A program made the position numbers and the translations under genes. Under the pieces are notes generated by a model. It did no database searches. It had not been told where the DNA came from and was given only the letters and a program-made list of their open reading frames with translations. Positions 14,050-22,603 of a stretch of 34,989 nucleotides of DNA are shown piece after piece (positions within the stretch are counted from its first letter, which is position 1; each line of letters begins with the position of its first letter). The stretch covers positions 1 to 34,989 of the forward strand of contig CAIUUR010000017.1 in assembly GCA_903902345.1 (NCBI GenBank). Direction: 5' to 3'. The stretch comes from an uncultured Geobacteraceae bacterium (GTDB taxonomy: Bacteria; Desulfobacterota; Desulfuromonadia; Geobacterales; CAIOGM01).

Positions 14050-16059
14050 ATGTTCGTGAGAGAGGGTTTTTCCCTTGCCGTGCCACTCATTCTGGCCGGG
14101 ATACTGCTTACTGCCTGCTCCGGAGTTCCGGCACTTCTCTTCGTCCGGCGGGATGGGCGGGGACAGAAGGTCGCTACCCTGTTCATGACCGTCGGTTCAG
14201 CGGCGGGGGGCGCCGGTGCGCTCCTGGTACTTCTCGGCGCCGCTTCCCGGCGATATCTCCTGGAGGAGGGGCTCTTCCCGGGGGGAGCCCAGTGGGGAGT
14301 CGATCCCCTCTCGGCTTTTTTCCTCATCCCTACCTTCCTTATGGCCGGTTGCTGCTCTCTTTATGGGATGGGTTATTTTCCCGAGACGAAGCATCCGTCC
14401 TCCGCGCCCCGCCTCACCTTCTTCTTCGGTCTCCTCGTCGCCTCGGTGGCTCTGGTCTTCACGGCCCGTGACGCTATTTCCTTTCTGGTGGCGTGGGAGG
14501 TGATGGCCCTGGCCTCTTTTTTTGCCATGACCACCGAAGACCAGAAGAAGGAGGTCCAGAGTGCGGGACTCCTCTTCCTGATTTGCGCCCATATGGGGAC
14601 GCTCGTTCTCTTTGCACATTTTTCTCTGCTTAAGGCGGGGAGCGCCACGTTCGGTTTTCCCGGAGGGGGCTCTCTTCCCGGTGGGACCCTGTCGGCCACG
14701 GCGATCTTTCTCACCGCGCTGGTGGGGTTCGGCTTCAAAGCAGGAATCATGCCGTTTCACATCTGGCTCCCCTCGGCCCACGCCGCGGCTCCCAGCCATG
14801 TCTCGGCGCTCATGTCCGGCGTCATCATCAAGACCGGGGTCTACGGACTCATCCGGGTCACCTCTTTTTATCATCATCCCCCCGGTTGGTGGGGGATGAC
14901 GCTGCTGGCTCTGGGGACCGTTTCCGCCGTGGCCGGGGTGCTCTTCGCCATAGGTCAGCATGATCTGAAGCGGCTCCTGGCCTACCACAGCATTGAGAAC
15001 ATCGGGATCATCGTCATGGGGATAGGTCTCGCCACCTTGGGGCGGAGTTCGGGCAGTACTCCCCTGCAACTCCTGGGAATGGGGGGGGCGTTGCTCCATG
15101 TTCTCAATCATGCCCTCTTCAAGGGGCTCCTCTTCCTGGGGGCCGGGTCGGTCATCCACGCCGCCGGGAGCAGGGAGATCGATCTCATGGGGGGGCTCGC
15201 CAAGGTGCTCCCCTTCACTGCTACCCTCTTTCTCGTGGGGGCTGCGGCAATCAGCGCTCTTCCGCCGCTCAACGGTTTTGTCAGCGAATATCTACTCTAC
15301 CTGGGGCTCTTTCACGGTGTTGTCGGTACCGGTTCCGTCGCGACTTCCTCCGTTCCGCTCATGGCTCTGGCCGTGCCGGCCCTGGCCCTGGTGGGGGGGC
15401 TGGCCCTGGCCTGTTTCGTTAAAGTTTACGGTATCGTTTTTCTGGGGATGCCCCGTCGGGACCATGCCCTGCAACCCCATGAGGCGGGGAGCGCCATGCT
15501 TCTCCCCATGGGGCTCCTGGCGTCGCTCTGCATTCTCATCGGGCTCTTCCCCCAGGGTGTTGTCCCGTTTCTGGAGCCGGCGGTGGCGGCGGGGCTTCCC
15601 GGTGGCATACCCGCCGCCGGTTTGACTGCATTGGCTCCCCTGGGATGGATCACCGTCATGGGGGGAGTGCTGCTCCTGCTGGTGGCCGTCATTGCCCTGA
15701 GTGCTCTCCGGCGGCGTCCCGGTGGCGTTGCCACTTCGGTTACCTGGGGGTGCGGCTACCTCCATCCCACCCCCCGGATGCAGTACACCGCCTCTTCTTT
15801 TGCCGCGATGCTGGTGGATCTGTTCGGCGGCATTCTTTGTCCCCGGCGCCATGCCCCGAAAATCACCGGTCACTTTCCGGCGCCGGCCGGTTTTTCCCGT
15901 ACCGTTCCCGAGGTGGTGCTGGAACTCCTTTATCTCCCCACCCTGAGACGTGGCAACGAACTGCTCATGCCGCTGAGGAAGCTCCAGCACGGCCAGATAC
16001 CGCTCTACATCCTCTATATTTTCGTCACGGTCATCGTTCTGTTGGTTCTGGCGCCGTGA
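14050..16059 (+). CDS. HyfB/NuoL-M-like proton-translocating membrane subunit (Ehr-type complex)
   Basis: Many TM segments; LVAWEVMALASFFAMTTED, GFGFKAGIMPFHIWLPSAHAAAPSHVSALMSGVIIKTGVYGLIR, LLAYHSIENIGIIVMGIG, LNHALFKGLLFLGAGSV. Confidence 0.92.
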   Translation: MFVREGFSLAVPLILAGILLTACSGVPALLFVRRDGRGQKVATLFMTVGSAAGGAGALLVLLGAASRRYLLEEGLFPGGAQWGVDPLSAFFLIPTFLMAGCCSLYGMGYFPETKHPSSAPRLTFFFGLLVASVALVFTARDAISFLVAWEVMALASFFAMTTEDQKKEVQSAGLLFLICAHMGTLVLFAHFSLLKAGSATFGFPGGGSLPGGTLSATAIFLTALVGFGFKAGIMPFHIWLPSAHAAAPSHVSALMSGVIIKTGVYGLIRVTSFYHHPPGWWGMTLLALGTVSAVAGVLFAIGQHDLKRLLAYHSIENIGIIVMGIGLATLGRSSGSTPLQLLGMGGALLHVLNHALFKGLLFLGAGSVIHAAGSREIDLMGGLAKVLPFTATLFLVGAAAISALPPLNGFVSEYLLYLGLFHGVVGTGSVATSSVPLMALAVPALALVGGLALACFVKVYGIVFLGMPRRDHALQPHEAGSAMLLPMGLLASLCILIGLFPQGVVPFLEPAVAAGLPGGIPAAGLTALAPLGWITVMGGVLLLLVAVIALSALRRRPGGVATSVTWGCGYLHPTPRMQYTASSFAAMLVDLFGGILCPRRHAPKITGHFPAPAGFSRTVPEVVLELLYLPTLRRGNELLMPLRKLQHGQIPLYILYIFVTVIVLLVLAP

Positions 16060-16093
16060 TGTCACTCCCTGAAATAAGTTCGGACCGATCGCC

Positions 16094-17002
16094 ATGATCG
16101 ATTTCACTATTCACCTCCTTCTCGTCCTCTTCATGCCGCCGCTCCTCCTGGGGGTCATAGGGAAGACCAAGGCCGCCTTTGCCGGACGGGTCGGTGCTCC
16201 CTACCTCCAGCACTATCATGACCTGCTGCGGCTGTTCCGGAAGGGGATGGTGGTCAGCGAGACCACCACCTGGCTACACTGGGGCGGCCCGGTCACCGCT
16301 CTGGCCGCCACCCTGGCCGCCTCATGCCTCATCCCCCTGGGAAACCACCCCCCTCCCGTTTCCTTCCCTGGCGATATGATTCTCTTCGCCTACCTCCTTG
16401 CCTTGGGGCGCTTCGTCACGATCCTGGCGGCGCTGGATACCGGCTCCAGCTTCGAGGGGATGGGGGCCGCCCGGGAGGCGACCTACGCTTGTCTCACCGA
16501 GCCGACCCTCTTCTTTGCCCTGGTGGTCCTGGCGCGACTTTCCGGCTCTCTCTCTTTACAGACCATGTTGACCACCTCCCCGAGGGGGGGATGGGCCGGC
16601 TCCGGCGCACCGCTCCTCCTGCTGGTGGCTGCTCTCTTCATCGTCCTTCTTGCGGAGAACTGCCGTATCCCCTTCGACGACCCCGCCACCCACCTGGAGC
16701 TGACCATGATTCATGAGGTGATGGTTCTGGATCAGAGCGGGCCGCTCCTGGGCGCCGTCCAGTACGGCGCCGCTCTCAAGCTCTTCATCCTGGGCTCCTT
16801 GTTTGTTCAGGTTGCCCTGCCGCTACGCACCGGCAATGTTCTGGCTGACTGGGGGGTTTTCATCCTCTCCCTGCTTCTGCTGGCCATGGCCATCGGCACC
16901 GTGGAATCGGTCATGGCGCGGCTTCCTTTGCTCCGGGTTCCCCAGCTCCTCATCGCGGGGAGCATCCTGTCGGCCTTCGCCCTCCTCCTCATACTGAGAT
17001 AA
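16094..17002 (+). CDS. HyfC/HycD/NuoH-like membrane subunit
   Basis: GVIGKTKAAFAGRVGAPYLQHYHDLLRLFRKGMVVSETTTW, LLAENCRIPFDDPATHLELTMIHEVMVLDQSGP. Confidence 0.93.
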   Translation: MIDFTIHLLLVLFMPPLLLGVIGKTKAAFAGRVGAPYLQHYHDLLRLFRKGMVVSETTTWLHWGGPVTALAATLAASCLIPLGNHPPPVSFPGDMILFAYLLALGRFVTILAALDTGSSFEGMGAAREATYACLTEPTLFFALVVLARLSGSLSLQTMLTTSPRGGWAGSGAPLLLLVAALFIVLLAENCRIPFDDPATHLELTMIHEVMVLDQSGPLLGAVQYGAALKLFILGSLFVQVALPLRTGNVLADWGVFILSLLLLAMAIGTVESVMARLPLLRVPQLLIAGSILSAFALLLILR

Positions 17003-17005
17003 CAT

Positions 17006-17650
17006 ATGGAATCGCTCATCGATCAGCTCCTTGTCCTTGTGATGCTTCTCAATTTTCTCGGTTTGGGGACCAGCCGGATGCATGTCGCTATCCGGACCGT
17101 TGCCTTCCAGGGGGTGATCCTGGGAATCTTGTCGGGGATCACCCATTCACTGACGCTGCACCTGGTGCTAATCACCGGGGGGATCATCTTCGCCAAGGGG
17201 TTTTTCATCCCCTGGCTCCTGTTCCGGGCCATGCGTCGAGTGGAGATCCGGGAGGAGGTGGAGCCGTTTCTGAGCCATACCGCCACCCTGCTCCTTTGTG
17301 CCGTCACCACGGCCTTGGCCTTCGTCTTTGCCGCCAAACTCCCCCTGGCTCCGCAGCATCAGGGGCTCCTCTTCGTTCCCGCCGCCATCGCCACCATCAT
17401 CACCGGGTTCCTTGTCCTGACCACCCGGAAGAAGGCCATTACCCAGGTCATCGGCTATCTGATCCTGGAGAACGGGATCTTTATCTTCGGTCTCCTCCTT
17501 TCCCAGGCGATGCCAGTCATGGTGGAGGCCGGCGTCCTTCTGGATCTCATCGTGGGAATCTTCGTCATGGGGATCATCATTAACCAGATCAGCCGTGAGT
17601 TCTCTTCCATCGATACCTCGCGACTCACGGCACTTCGGGAGGAGCAGTGA
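17006..17650 (+). CDS. HyfE-like (NuoK-like) hydrogenase-4 component E membrane subunit
   Basis: MHVAIRTVAFQGVILGILSGITHS, TTRKKAITQVIGYLILENGIFIFGLLL; gene order. Confidence 0.88.
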   Translation: MESLIDQLLVLVMLLNFLGLGTSRMHVAIRTVAFQGVILGILSGITHSLTLHLVLITGGIIFAKGFFIPWLLFRAMRRVEIREEVEPFLSHTATLLLCAVTTALAFVFAAKLPLAPQHQGLLFVPAAIATIITGFLVLTTRKKAITQVIGYLILENGIFIFGLLLSQAMPVMVEAGVLLDLIVGIFVMGIIINQISREFSSIDTSRLTALREEQ

Positions 17651-19086
17651 TCTATCTTCTTCTCACCCTCGTCCCCCTCACCGGTGCTTTCCTCTCCTGG
17701 TACATCCGGTCGAACCTGCGGCGCCCCCGGATTCTGCCCCTGTTCGGTCTCGCCCACTTTGTTCTGACAATAACGGCGGTGGCGGATCGCCCCCTCCCGG
17801 CTCTCTCCGGGTGGATCGCCCTGGACCCCCTGGGAATGGTGGTGCTCCTGACCATCAGCACCCTCTATCTTGCCTGTTCGCTGTATGCCGCGGGGTATCT
17901 CCCCTCCCGCCACGAACGTTCCAATCAGGTGCTCTGTTTCGGTATGCTCCTCTGTCTCTCGGCCATGACCTTGGTGACGCTTGCCCATCACCTGGGACTT
18001 CTCTGGGTCGCCATGGAGTCCACTACCCTGAGTATGGCTCCGCTGGTCTACTTCAACCGGAATGCCCGCTCCATTGAGGCCACCTGGAAGTACATGATCA
18101 TCTGCTCCGTGGGGATCGCTCTGGCGCTGTTGGGACTCTTCTTTCTGGCGTATGCCACTCTGGTGGCGGGGAAGGAGACGACCCTCCTCCTGGAACCGCT
18201 GGTCGCCGGGGCGCGGAATCTTTCCCCCGACTGGCTCAACGCCGCGTTCATCTTCCTCCTGGTAGGATTCGGCACCAAGATGGGGTTGGCCCCGCTTCAT
18301 ACCTGGAAGCCGGACGCCTACGGCGAGGCGCCGGGACTGGTGGGAGCGCTCCTGGCGGGGGGGCTCGTAAACTGCGCCCTCCTGGGGGTGATCAGGGTCT
18401 ACCAGATCTGCATGGCTTCCGGCGACATCCGCTTCTACCAGCGGACATTGGTGGGGATGGGGCTCCTCTCCATGGCCTTCGCAGCTCTCTTCATGCTTCG
18501 CCAGTCCGATTTCAAGCGGATGTTGGCCTACTCCAGCGTGGAGCATGTGGGGGTACTGGTCATCGCCCTGGGAATCGGCAAGGGGGCCCTTCCGGGGTTC
18601 CTCTTTCATATCGTCAACAACGGGCTGACCAAGGGGGTCCTCTTCCTTGCTGCCGGGAATATCCACCGTTCCTACGGGACCAAAAACGCCGGGAAGGTCC
18701 GGGGCTTGCTCCAGAGGCTCCCCCTCACCGGCGGCCTCTTTCTTGCCGGATTTTTCGCCATTACCGGATCTCCCCCGTTCAGCCCCTTTCTCAGCGAATT
18801 CAGCATGGTTTCCGGGATCTTCGGCAGCGGGCGCCCCCTGGTTGCCGCCTGGATACTCTTTCTCCTGGCAATCATCTTCATGGGGATGGCCAACACGGTT
18901 CTTCCCATGATGATGGGGAGCGCCCCCCGTGAGGCCGGGACGATTGTGGGGTATCGTGACCAGTTTTTCACCGTTGCCCCCCCCTTGGCGTTAATGGCTG
19001 TCATTCTCGTTCTGGGGGTATGGCAGCCGGAACCGTTGAGGGAGCTTCTGGCCGATGCCGCCCGGCTCCTGGAGGTACGGCCATGA
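17647..19086 (+). CDS. HyfF/NuoN-M-like proton-translocating membrane subunit
   Basis: GLLWVAMESTTLSMAPLVYFNRNARSIEATWKYMIICSVGIALALLG, GTKMGLAPLHTWKPDAYGEAPGLVGALLAGGLVNCALLGVIRVYQIC, KRMLAYSSVEHVGVL. GTG start overlapping the upstream TGA. Confidence 0.93.
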   Translation: MIYLLLTLVPLTGAFLSWYIRSNLRRPRILPLFGLAHFVLTITAVADRPLPALSGWIALDPLGMVVLLTISTLYLACSLYAAGYLPSRHERSNQVLCFGMLLCLSAMTLVTLAHHLGLLWVAMESTTLSMAPLVYFNRNARSIEATWKYMIICSVGIALALLGLFFLAYATLVAGKETTLLLEPLVAGARNLSPDWLNAAFIFLLVGFGTKMGLAPLHTWKPDAYGEAPGLVGALLAGGLVNCALLGVIRVYQICMASGDIRFYQRTLVGMGLLSMAFAALFMLRQSDFKRMLAYSSVEHVGVLVIALGIGKGALPGFLFHIVNNGLTKGVLFLAAGNIHRSYGTKNAGKVRGLLQRLPLTGGLFLAGFFAITGSPPFSPFLSEFSMVSGIFGSGRPLVAAWILFLLAIIFMGMANTVLPMMMGSAPREAGTIVGYRDQFFTVAPPLALMAVILVLGVWQPEPLRELLADAARLLEVRP

Positions 19087-20588
19087 ACCTGTCCGCCAGC
19101 GTCAGAACCATCCGTAACGGAGGGACTCTCCCTCTGACCCAGATCCCGCTCCTCCCCGTGGACGAATTCTGTCAGACTCTCCTGGACGCCACCGATCATG
19201 GCTGGCAGGTGGCATCCTATTTTGGCGTCCCCGAAGGGGAGGAGGTAATCCTCTATGCTGTTCTGGGGTACAAGGAAGAGGGGGTCATCGCCCTGCTCCG
19301 GAGCCGGGTGCGGGGACGTTTCCCCTCATTGGCCACCCTCTCTCCTCAGCTGCAGCTCTTTGAGCGGGAAATTAGAGAGGAGTGCGGAATCATCCCCGAG
19401 GGGCACCCCTGGCTCAAGCCGGTCCGTTTTCTCCCCGATCCTCGCAGTGGAGTGCGACCGTTGCCGGGAGCTCTGGATCCCTACGTCGTGGAGGGGGACG
19501 AAATTCATGAGGTGGCGGTGGGGCCGGTGCACGCGGGGATCATCGAGCCGGGGCATTTCCGTTTCCAGTGTCACGGGGAACAGGTTTTTTACCTGGATAT
19601 CTGCCTCGGGTACCAGCATCGGGGCATCGAAAGGGGAACGGTGGGGGGGCCACATCCGGCGACCCTGTTTCAGATGGAGGCGGCGGCGGGAGACAGTACG
19701 GTGGGCCACACCCAGGCCCACTGCATGATTACGGAGTCGCTCACCGGGCGGCGGGTCCCTCCCCGGGGGGAGGCGCTCCGGGGGATCGCCCTGGAACTGG
19801 AGCGGCTGGCCAACCATACGGGGGATCTGGGAGCCATCGCCGGGGATGTGGGGTTTCTCCCCACGGCCTCCTTCTGTGGTCGGATCAGGGGGGATTTTCT
19901 CAACATGACCGCGCTCCTCTGCGGTAGCCGTTTCGGCAGGGGGTTGGTCCGTCCCGGCGGGTGCGGCTTCGATCTGGATGACCGGCGGCGGGATGAGCTG
20001 CTGCAACGGCTGGCCGCAGCCCGAAAAGATCTCACTGCAGCGGTGAATCTCCTCTGGTCGACCCCGTCAGTCATGGCTCGGCTGGAAAAGTGCGGCGCCG
20101 TTGCCCTGAAGGATGCCGAGGAGCTCGGAGTGGTGGGGCCTCCGCTGCGGGGGTGTGGCGGTTCACGGGATGTCCGGGTAGACTATCCCTTTGGTATCTA
20201 CCGGACGAAGCGGATTCCCGTGGCCACCGCCACCGGCGGCGACGTTCATGCCCGGGCGCTGGTCCGATGGCTTGAGGCGGAGCGCTCTCTTGATTTTATG
20301 AGGGAATTACTGGGTGAGTTGCCGGGTGGAGGTGTCCTCAGCGCCCCCCATGCCGCATCCCCCCCTGCTCCAGATACGCTGGCCGTGGCCTTCACCGAGG
20401 GGTGGCGCGGTCGGATCTGTCATGTGGTTCTAACCGGTGCCGACGGCCGTTACCGTAACTACAAGATCACTGATCCCTCTTTTTTTAACTGGCCGGCTCT
20501 CGCCTTGGCGATGCGCAATCAGCAGATTTCCGATTTTCCTCTCTGCAACAAGAGTTTTAATCTCTCCTATTGCGGGTTCGATCTGTGA
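19083..20588 (+). CDS. NuoCD/HycE-like 'large subunit' lacking the Ni-Fe cysteine motifs (Ehr-type)
   Basis: NuoC-like N-terminus; VGPVHAGIIEPGHFRFQCHGEQVFYLDICLGYQHRGIERG and LELERLANHTGDLGAIAGDVGF like HycE/NuoD. The CxxC motifs are replaced by EAAAGDSTVGHTQAHC and NKSFNLSYCGFDL. Confidence 0.9.
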   Translation: MNLSASVRTIRNGGTLPLTQIPLLPVDEFCQTLLDATDHGWQVASYFGVPEGEEVILYAVLGYKEEGVIALLRSRVRGRFPSLATLSPQLQLFEREIREECGIIPEGHPWLKPVRFLPDPRSGVRPLPGALDPYVVEGDEIHEVAVGPVHAGIIEPGHFRFQCHGEQVFYLDICLGYQHRGIERGTVGGPHPATLFQMEAAAGDSTVGHTQAHCMITESLTGRRVPPRGEALRGIALELERLANHTGDLGAIAGDVGFLPTASFCGRIRGDFLNMTALLCGSRFGRGLVRPGGCGFDLDDRRRDELLQRLAAARKDLTAAVNLLWSTPSVMARLEKCGAVALKDAEELGVVGPPLRGCGGSRDVRVDYPFGIYRTKRIPVATATGGDVHARALVRWLEAERSLDFMRELLGELPGGGVLSAPHAASPPAPDTLAVAFTEGWRGRICHVVLTGADGRYRNYKITDPSFFNWPALALAMRNQQISDFPLCNKSFNLSYCGFDL

Positions 20589-20623: not shown

Positions 20624-22603
20624 ATGTCCGATTCGCGGCAGACTCATCCCGGTCCGGCAAGGCCGAGGTTGTCCCTCGCCCATAAGATTCTCTTCTTTAC
20701 CACCCTCTCCATCGTCCTTGGGCTCCTCATGGTGGGGGGGGCTGCCCTTTTCCTGGCAAAAAAGGAACTGGTGGCATTGCAGAAAAAAAACAGCATGAGC
20801 TTTGTGGGGGTGATCGCCGAGGATATCCGGAGCGTCATGCTGGCGGGGAACGCCAGGATGCTGGATGCGAAAATGGCGGATGAGGTGACCGAACATGGGG
20901 GATCCCTCTCCCTCATGCTTTACAACCACCGGGGAGTGGAGCGTCGCAGCGGGGCGCCGGGGAACTCCTCCGTTGCCCTGGTTCTCCGGAGCGGCCTGCC
21001 GCAAAGCAATGAAAAAGTGGAAAACGGTATCCATCTCCTGGAGACCTATTTTCCCCTGACCAACGAAGTTCGTTGCCAGGGGTGCCACGACAAAGGGGTG
21101 AGGGTCAACGGCGTGCTGAGGCTGACCACCAGCATCGAGCAGGCCTACGACGCCACGAAAAACTCGGCGCTTCTCCTCGCCGTTTGCGGCGCTGCGGCGC
21201 TGATTGCCAGCATCGTTATGCTGACAATCGTCCTTCGGGTCATGGTCCTGAGAAAGATCAACGACTTTGTCGCCCAGATAGCCAATCTCTCCCACGGTGA
21301 TGGTGACCTGACCCGTCGGCTGGACAGTACGGGGAACGATGAGCTGGCCGAGGCGAACCGGCAGTTCAATCTCTTTCTGGACAGGCTTGATACCCTGATT
21401 TCGCAGGCGGCGCTGACGGCGGTGCATGTGGCCGGTTCCGCCGGAATCATTCAGGCCTCTTCCCAGAGTCTCTCCAGGGTAGTGGGCGATGCCGCGGTCC
21501 AGGCTACTTCAGTGGCAACAGCCGGAGAGGAGATGTCGGCAACCTCCAATGACATCGCCCGAAGCTGCACCATGGCTGCGGAGAGTTCCCAGCATTCCAA
21601 CCGCCTTGCCTTTGAAGGGGGGGCGGTCATTGACGCCACCATTCAGGGGATGATGCGTATTGCCGATCGAGTGAAGGAGACGGCAACGGTGGTGGAAAAC
21701 CTTGGCCGACGTTCGGACCAGATTGGTGAGATTGTGGGGACCATCGAGGATATTGCCGATCAGACCAACCTGCTGGCTCTCAATGCCGCCATCGAGGCGG
21801 CCCGGGCGGGTGAGCAGGGACGGGGGTTTGCCGTTGTTGCTGACGAGGTCAGGGCCCTGGCCGAGCGTACGACCATCGCAACCAGGGAGATCGGCGGGAT
21901 GATCAAGCTCATCCAGAACGAAACGAGAGTGGCCGTGGCTTCCATGGAGCAGGGGGTCGCGGCGGTCACCAGAGGGACGGAAGATGCTGCCAGGTCGGGA
22001 GAGGCGTTGCAGGGGATTCTTCGCCAGGTGGACGGGGTGACACAGCAGATTCATCAGATTGCCGTCGCGGCAGAGGAGCAGTCGGCCACCACCAACGAGA
22101 TCAGTTCGCATATCTACGCCATCAACGATGTGTTTCTGAATACGGAGCAGTCGGCGAGGAATACCTCCGGTGAAGCGGAAAAATTGACCCGCCTCTCCAC
22201 GGATCTCCAGGAGGCGGTGGGAAAGTTCAAAACACGAGAGAGCGATATCCTGATGCTGTCGGTTGCCGCCAACGACCACCGGATGTTCGTCAACAGAATT
22301 CGGGCCGCGGTGCATGGTGATACCTTCATCGCCGCGGACACTCTGCCGGATCACCACGGCTGCCGTTTCGGCGTCTGGTATGACGGCGATGGCGACCGGT
22401 TTTGCGGCGGATTGGGCTCATTCAAGGCGATCGTCGTTCCCCATGAACGGATTCACGCCCTTGCCAGGGATGCCGTGTCCGCCGCCAATGCCGGTGATCG
22501 CACCAAGTCAAACCGACTGATGCAGGAGATCGAACAGAGTTCCGTTCTGATCATGGCTCAACTGGAAAAGACCAAGCAGGAGTATCTTGGGGGAAAGAGC
22601 TAG
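20624..22603 (+). CDS. methyl-accepting chemotaxis protein with periplasmic CXXCH heme motif and C-terminal CZB-like domain
   Basis: Two TM segments flank a sensor region with [16 protein letters not shown] hairpin tip [50 protein letters not shown]-terminal [39 protein letters not shown]. Confidence 0.93.

Follow-up and report, generated by a model that had tools for sequence, protein, structure and literature searches.

The five Hyf-like genes of the window, which is the complete 34,989-bp contig C17 of a 4.9-Mb, 568-contig Geobacterales draft genome, are part of an ordinary Ehr complex of the kind known from GSU0739-45 of Geobacter sulfurreducens, here split between two loci. Ehr complexes are energy-converting membrane relatives of respiratory complex I in Geobacter-type bacteria. 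The window encodes the membrane arm (EhrA, EhrB, EhrC, and EhrD) and the large subunit EhrL. EhrS, encoded on another contig, is expected to join them, presumably in a redox-driven ion pump. The probability of this reading is put at about 85%.

The ehr cluster and its large subunit

The genes of the cluster are as follows:

14050-16059, + strand: EhrA, HyfB/NuoL-like antiporter subunit, 669 aa; Pfam PF00361 (Proton_antipo_M) 1e-49; NCBIfam hydrogenase-4 subunit B model, below cut-off
16094-17002, + strand: EhrB, HyfC/NuoH-like, 302 aa; PF00146 (NADHdh) 1.5e-29
17006-17650, + strand: EhrC, HyfE-like, 214 aa; NF008556 1.2e-22, below cut-off
17647-19086, + strand: EhrD, HyfF-like antiporter subunit, 479 aa; PF00361 8.6e-49; hydrogenase-4 subunit F models 3e-97, below cut-off
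19083-20588, + strand: EhrL, NuoCD/HycE-like large subunit, 501 aa; PF00346/PF00329 (Complex1_49kDa/30kDa)

All five closely packed open reading frames are real, and the profile matches agree with the HyfB-, HyfC-, HyfE-, HyfF-, and HycE-like identities given in an earlier note made from the sequence. ehrC overlaps ehrD, and ehrD overlaps ehrL, by 4 bp. Matches of the cluster proteins to the NCBIfam hydrogenase-4 subunit B, E, and F models all fall under the equivalog cut-offs, and EhrC scores 23.5 bits against Oxidored_q2, slightly short of the cut-off of 26.1. The clustering of Hyf/Mrp-like membrane subunits with EhrL is one of the features by which an Ehr complex is recognized.

A chemoreceptor gene (20624-22603) is also found in the window. 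Its product combines a sensor domain of the Mcp40H-20 type with a heme-type CxxCH motif (CQGCH) and, at the C-terminus, a zinc-binding CZB domain. A conserved link between the chemoreceptor and ehrL was rejected: the two genes adjoin in genome G002, and a different gene is found there in G003.

Among structures in the PDB, EhrL is best matched by E. coli HycE (7z0s_E, E=8e-43, phmmer). HycE is also nearest in predicted fold, with a TM score of 0.84 to 7z0s_E (mean pLDDT 84; residues 132-157 and the C-terminal 16 residues are of low confidence). In the alignment, CGIC of HycE corresponds to AGDS in EhrL and DPCYSC to NLSYCG, and the Ni-Fe cysteine positions of HycE hold A202, S205, S495, and G498 (phmmer alignment). 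The sequences EAAAGDSTVGHTQAHC and NKSFNLSYCGFDL, quoted in the earlier note as replacing both Ni-Fe cysteine motifs, are indeed present. A CxxC is found at none of the conserved positions of 37 EhrL homologues, and the replacement motifs, (A/S)GD(S/T) and NKSFxLSYCG, hardly vary among them. The earlier suggestion of no nickel stands when EhrL is aligned to HycE and Ehr homologues, the ligand columns being without cysteines.

In NuoD, a histidine and a tyrosine are the quinone-binding residues. When EhrL is aligned to NuoD of the same genome, G203 falls in the Tyr column and I154 in the His column. Since both the ligand columns and the His/Tyr columns are substituted, EhrL is, as judged from its sequence, without a Ni-Fe site and without the canonical quinone His/Tyr pair. 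The four Ni-Fe-ligating cysteines that mark a group 4 [NiFe]-hydrogenase and the quinone-site His and Tyr that mark complex I are thus both lacking. A large subunit devoid of both CxxC motifs, together with Hyf-like membrane subunits, bears out the proposal of an Ehr-like complex without a Ni-Fe site. Ehr is described in the literature as having no Ni-Fe ligands and an unknown function (PMC10284858, PMC12342949).

EhrL has its own conserved residues. Every one of 102 close homologues has C163, C265, C446, H447, and C497. HycE keeps a histidine matching H447; the four cysteines are absent from HycE, NuoD, and the sister clade Ehr2. It is conceivable, although rather improbable, that these residues form a new metal or Fe-S site in place of Ni-Fe, an idea that supplements the main explanation. 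Such a site would replace the Ni-Fe centre and define what this Ehr clade reduces. However, in more divergent Ehr1-type proteins other residues stand in for C265 and C446 (F/S, N/C, C/T), with C163 and C497 left in most, and the C-terminus is of low confidence in the EhrL model. Given the variation of C265 and C446 in the wider homologue sample, the idea that every member of the family has the four-cysteine site is rejected.

The Ehr2 clade is a second Ehr-like group, with the C-terminus NKSFNQSYSGHDL or NDL (L124 1512-3872, L182-L187). It occurs in some Geobacterales and in other genomes of the phylum, and at locus L124 a NuoB-like small-subunit match lies downstream.

EhrS on a second contig

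The reported absence of a small subunit and a ferredoxin subunit is correct for the window, a complete contig, and incorrect for the genome. A genome search for EhrS/NuoB paralogues, as the earlier note advised, recovers a dedicated EhrS:

C184:14361-15116: EhrS, 252 aa; residues 1-104, FHL iron-sulfur subunit model 8e-17, below its cut-off; residues 136-246, Oxidored_q6 2e-25

Read from these matches, EhrS is a fusion of a HycF/HyfH-like two-cluster ferredoxin to a NuoB/HycG/HyfI-like domain. The NuoB-like cysteines C136, C139, C203, and C233 are found in 43 of 43 orthologues, as are C51, C69, C72, and C75 (43/43 sequences). The eight ferredoxin-type cysteines are kept in most or all of the 43, alignment gaps aside. 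EhrS is predicted to carry two [4Fe-4S] clusters in the ferredoxin domain and the proximal cluster in the NuoB-like domain.

The genome has six Oxidored_q6 matches, five of which are assigned, by neighbours and sequence, to complex I or other [NiFe]-hydrogenases and were rejected as EhrS. The proteins on contigs C84 and C21 are judged to be complex I NuoB. Those on C245 and at C184:31485 are small subunits of other [NiFe]-hydrogenases with TAT-like N-termini. The last, on C182, is a [NiFe]-hydrogenase small subunit beside cytochrome b and a hydrogenase-maturation-protease-like ORF.

Because ehrS and ehrL are unlinked in this genome, their partnership rests here on co-distribution and on the gene order of relatives. 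The closest named records of these relatives are uncultured Geobacter/Desulfuromonadales MAGs; Geobacter, Geotalea, and Geomonas strains are more distant. In a set of 58 genomes, EhrL is found in 54, and 52 of those have EhrS; in the remaining two a contig end truncates the EhrL gene. The four genomes that have no EhrL have no EhrS either. EhrS orthologues at the relatives' loci (61-72% identity) are encoded directly or closely downstream of L, usually at a spacing of <250 bp and sometimes with one to a few intervening genes. The fullest order in Geobacterales loci is reg-A2-A1-B-C-D-L-S. The B-C-D-L-S part reaches Phycisphaerae, Verrucomicrobia, Zixibacteria, and Riflebacteria, as labels of single MAG contigs.

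The comparison of gene order that had been called for finds ehrS adjoining ehrL in most related genomes and distal in the window's genus. A place in the ehr operon is usual for ehrS and does not define Ehr; each of the four species of this genus has the gene outside it. Ten genomes appeared to have a distal ehrS. Two of these were discounted: G036 has the gene beside an ehrL fragment on a single contig, and the two genes of G025 are both at contig ends. Of the eight that remain, four belong to the window's genus and four to another family (G022, G050, G054, and G052; genera g12/g19). In G054, a single-contig genome, ehrS is 2.7 Mb from ehrL. It follows that ehrS can be unlinked from the ehr operon in at least two lineages.

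EhrS, a NuoB-like protein, is distal and co-conserved with EhrL, the very finding that, according to the earlier note, would make this an ordinary Ehr complex; the lack of a small subunit in the window is then no longer remarkable. Of the two explanations offered in the earlier note, an electron-input module encoded elsewhere is the one that agrees with C184:14361-15116, which tracks EhrL in the 58 genomes. The other, a membrane arm paired with something else, is superfluous given a dedicated, co-conserved EhrS. One form of it, in which EhrL and the membrane arm use another NuoB paralogue such as complex I NuoB to make a hybrid complex, has material to draw on, as the genome has two complex I sets with NuoB (contigs C84/C358 and C21). 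Yet these NuoB domains are just 38-44% identical to EhrS and sit with other nuo genes, and with a dedicated EhrS that tracks EhrL across the 58 genomes a hybrid is very improbable.

The split could also be taken for decay, the cluster being a non-functional remnant after loss of the Ni ligands and the operon small subunit, and the regulator and one of the two EhrA copies of relatives are likewise absent from the locus; but none of the five frames is broken, three sister species that share the split have them at 75-94% identity, and conservation of the replacement motifs extends from Geobacterales to Phycisphaerae MAGs, making decay hardly credible. The second EhrA (the A1 copy) was not found in a search of the window's own genome, and the one EhrA it has clusters with the relatives' A2-type paralogue (FastTree tree, no support testing). 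At L055, L058, and L061-L064, a regulator-like gene (helix-turn-helix by eye) stands beside the second EhrA, divergent from the main ehr operon. The ehr locus of the window's genus shows no such pair.

Neighbours of ehrS and a proposed electron path

mobA and mobB come after ehrS in each of the four species of the window's genus, and larA is close by. This link is not seen outside the genus in the relatives' loci compared. The pairing might point to a molybdenum enzyme, for example formate dehydrogenase. In this genome the run is compact (L013 4373-8304, on C184) and a HAMP histidine kinase gene is found upstream.

A cytoplasmic-type FdhA that scores above the TIGR01591 cut-off is encoded in the genome (L212 3094-7060, on C468), not near the ehr genes. 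By eye, its gene sits between flavoprotein-like and iron-sulfur-like ORFs, and the three are possibly a sulfhydrogenase-type module. A link between formate dehydrogenase and Ehr has been proposed in other organisms (PMC6349859). It is reported that Ehr of G. sulfurreducens reaches higher abundance on formate than under conditions that include hydrogen, a correlative observation, and its role is described as never investigated (PMC7894505).

Although encoded apart from the operon, EhrS is expected to assemble with the window products into an L-shaped machine like formate hydrogenlyase and complex I. By homology to these two, a cytoplasmic donor (reduced ferredoxin or one derived from formate) would pass electrons into the two ferredoxin-type clusters of EhrS. 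From there, the conserved cysteines suggest a chain through the NuoB-type cluster to the EhrL pocket. There an acceptor would be reduced, one other than H+ at a Ni-Fe centre or a quinone bound by the usual His/Tyr pair, and ion pumping via EhrB, EhrA, and EhrD would draw on the energy. A ferredoxin- or formate-fed ion pump that would make no H2 is favoured, formate or ferredoxin as the donor being a guess.

With EhrS placed, the apparent gap in electron input is closed. Annotation that relies on operons can mistake Ehr complexes for incomplete ones. Concrete leads on the Ehr substrate are offered by the invariant cysteines of EhrL and by the genus-specific ehrS-mobA-mobB run.

Comparison with known systems

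The literature places Pyrococcus Mbx, as a hydrogenase-related complex, in the same superfamily as Ehr (PMC6349859). The modules of respiratory complex I (NuoCD, NuoB, and NuoHLMN) are homologous to those of Ehr. However, the NuoD quinone columns are substituted in EhrL as given above, and no NuoEFG-like subunit is found at the ehr locus.

E. coli formate hydrogenlyase and hydrogenase 4 (HycE, Hyf) have a subunit plan and fold in common with Ehr, and the N-terminus of EhrS is like the FHL iron-sulfur subunit. Unlike these enzymes, Ehr has a large subunit without Ni-Fe ligands, and its HyfH- and HyfI-like parts are fused in EhrS.

The subunits reported for GSU0739-45 of G. sulfurreducens, an Ech-related membrane complex named Ehr (Ech-hydrogenase-related), include EhrA-1, EhrC, EhrL, and EhrS (PMC7894505). 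The cluster is like GSU0739-0745 in its Ehr subunits, the conserved order in Geobacterales loci being reg-A2-A1-B-C-D-L-S. It differs in that the window's genome has ehrS at another place (S-mobA-mobB) and that neither the regulator nor one of the two EhrA copies is at the locus.
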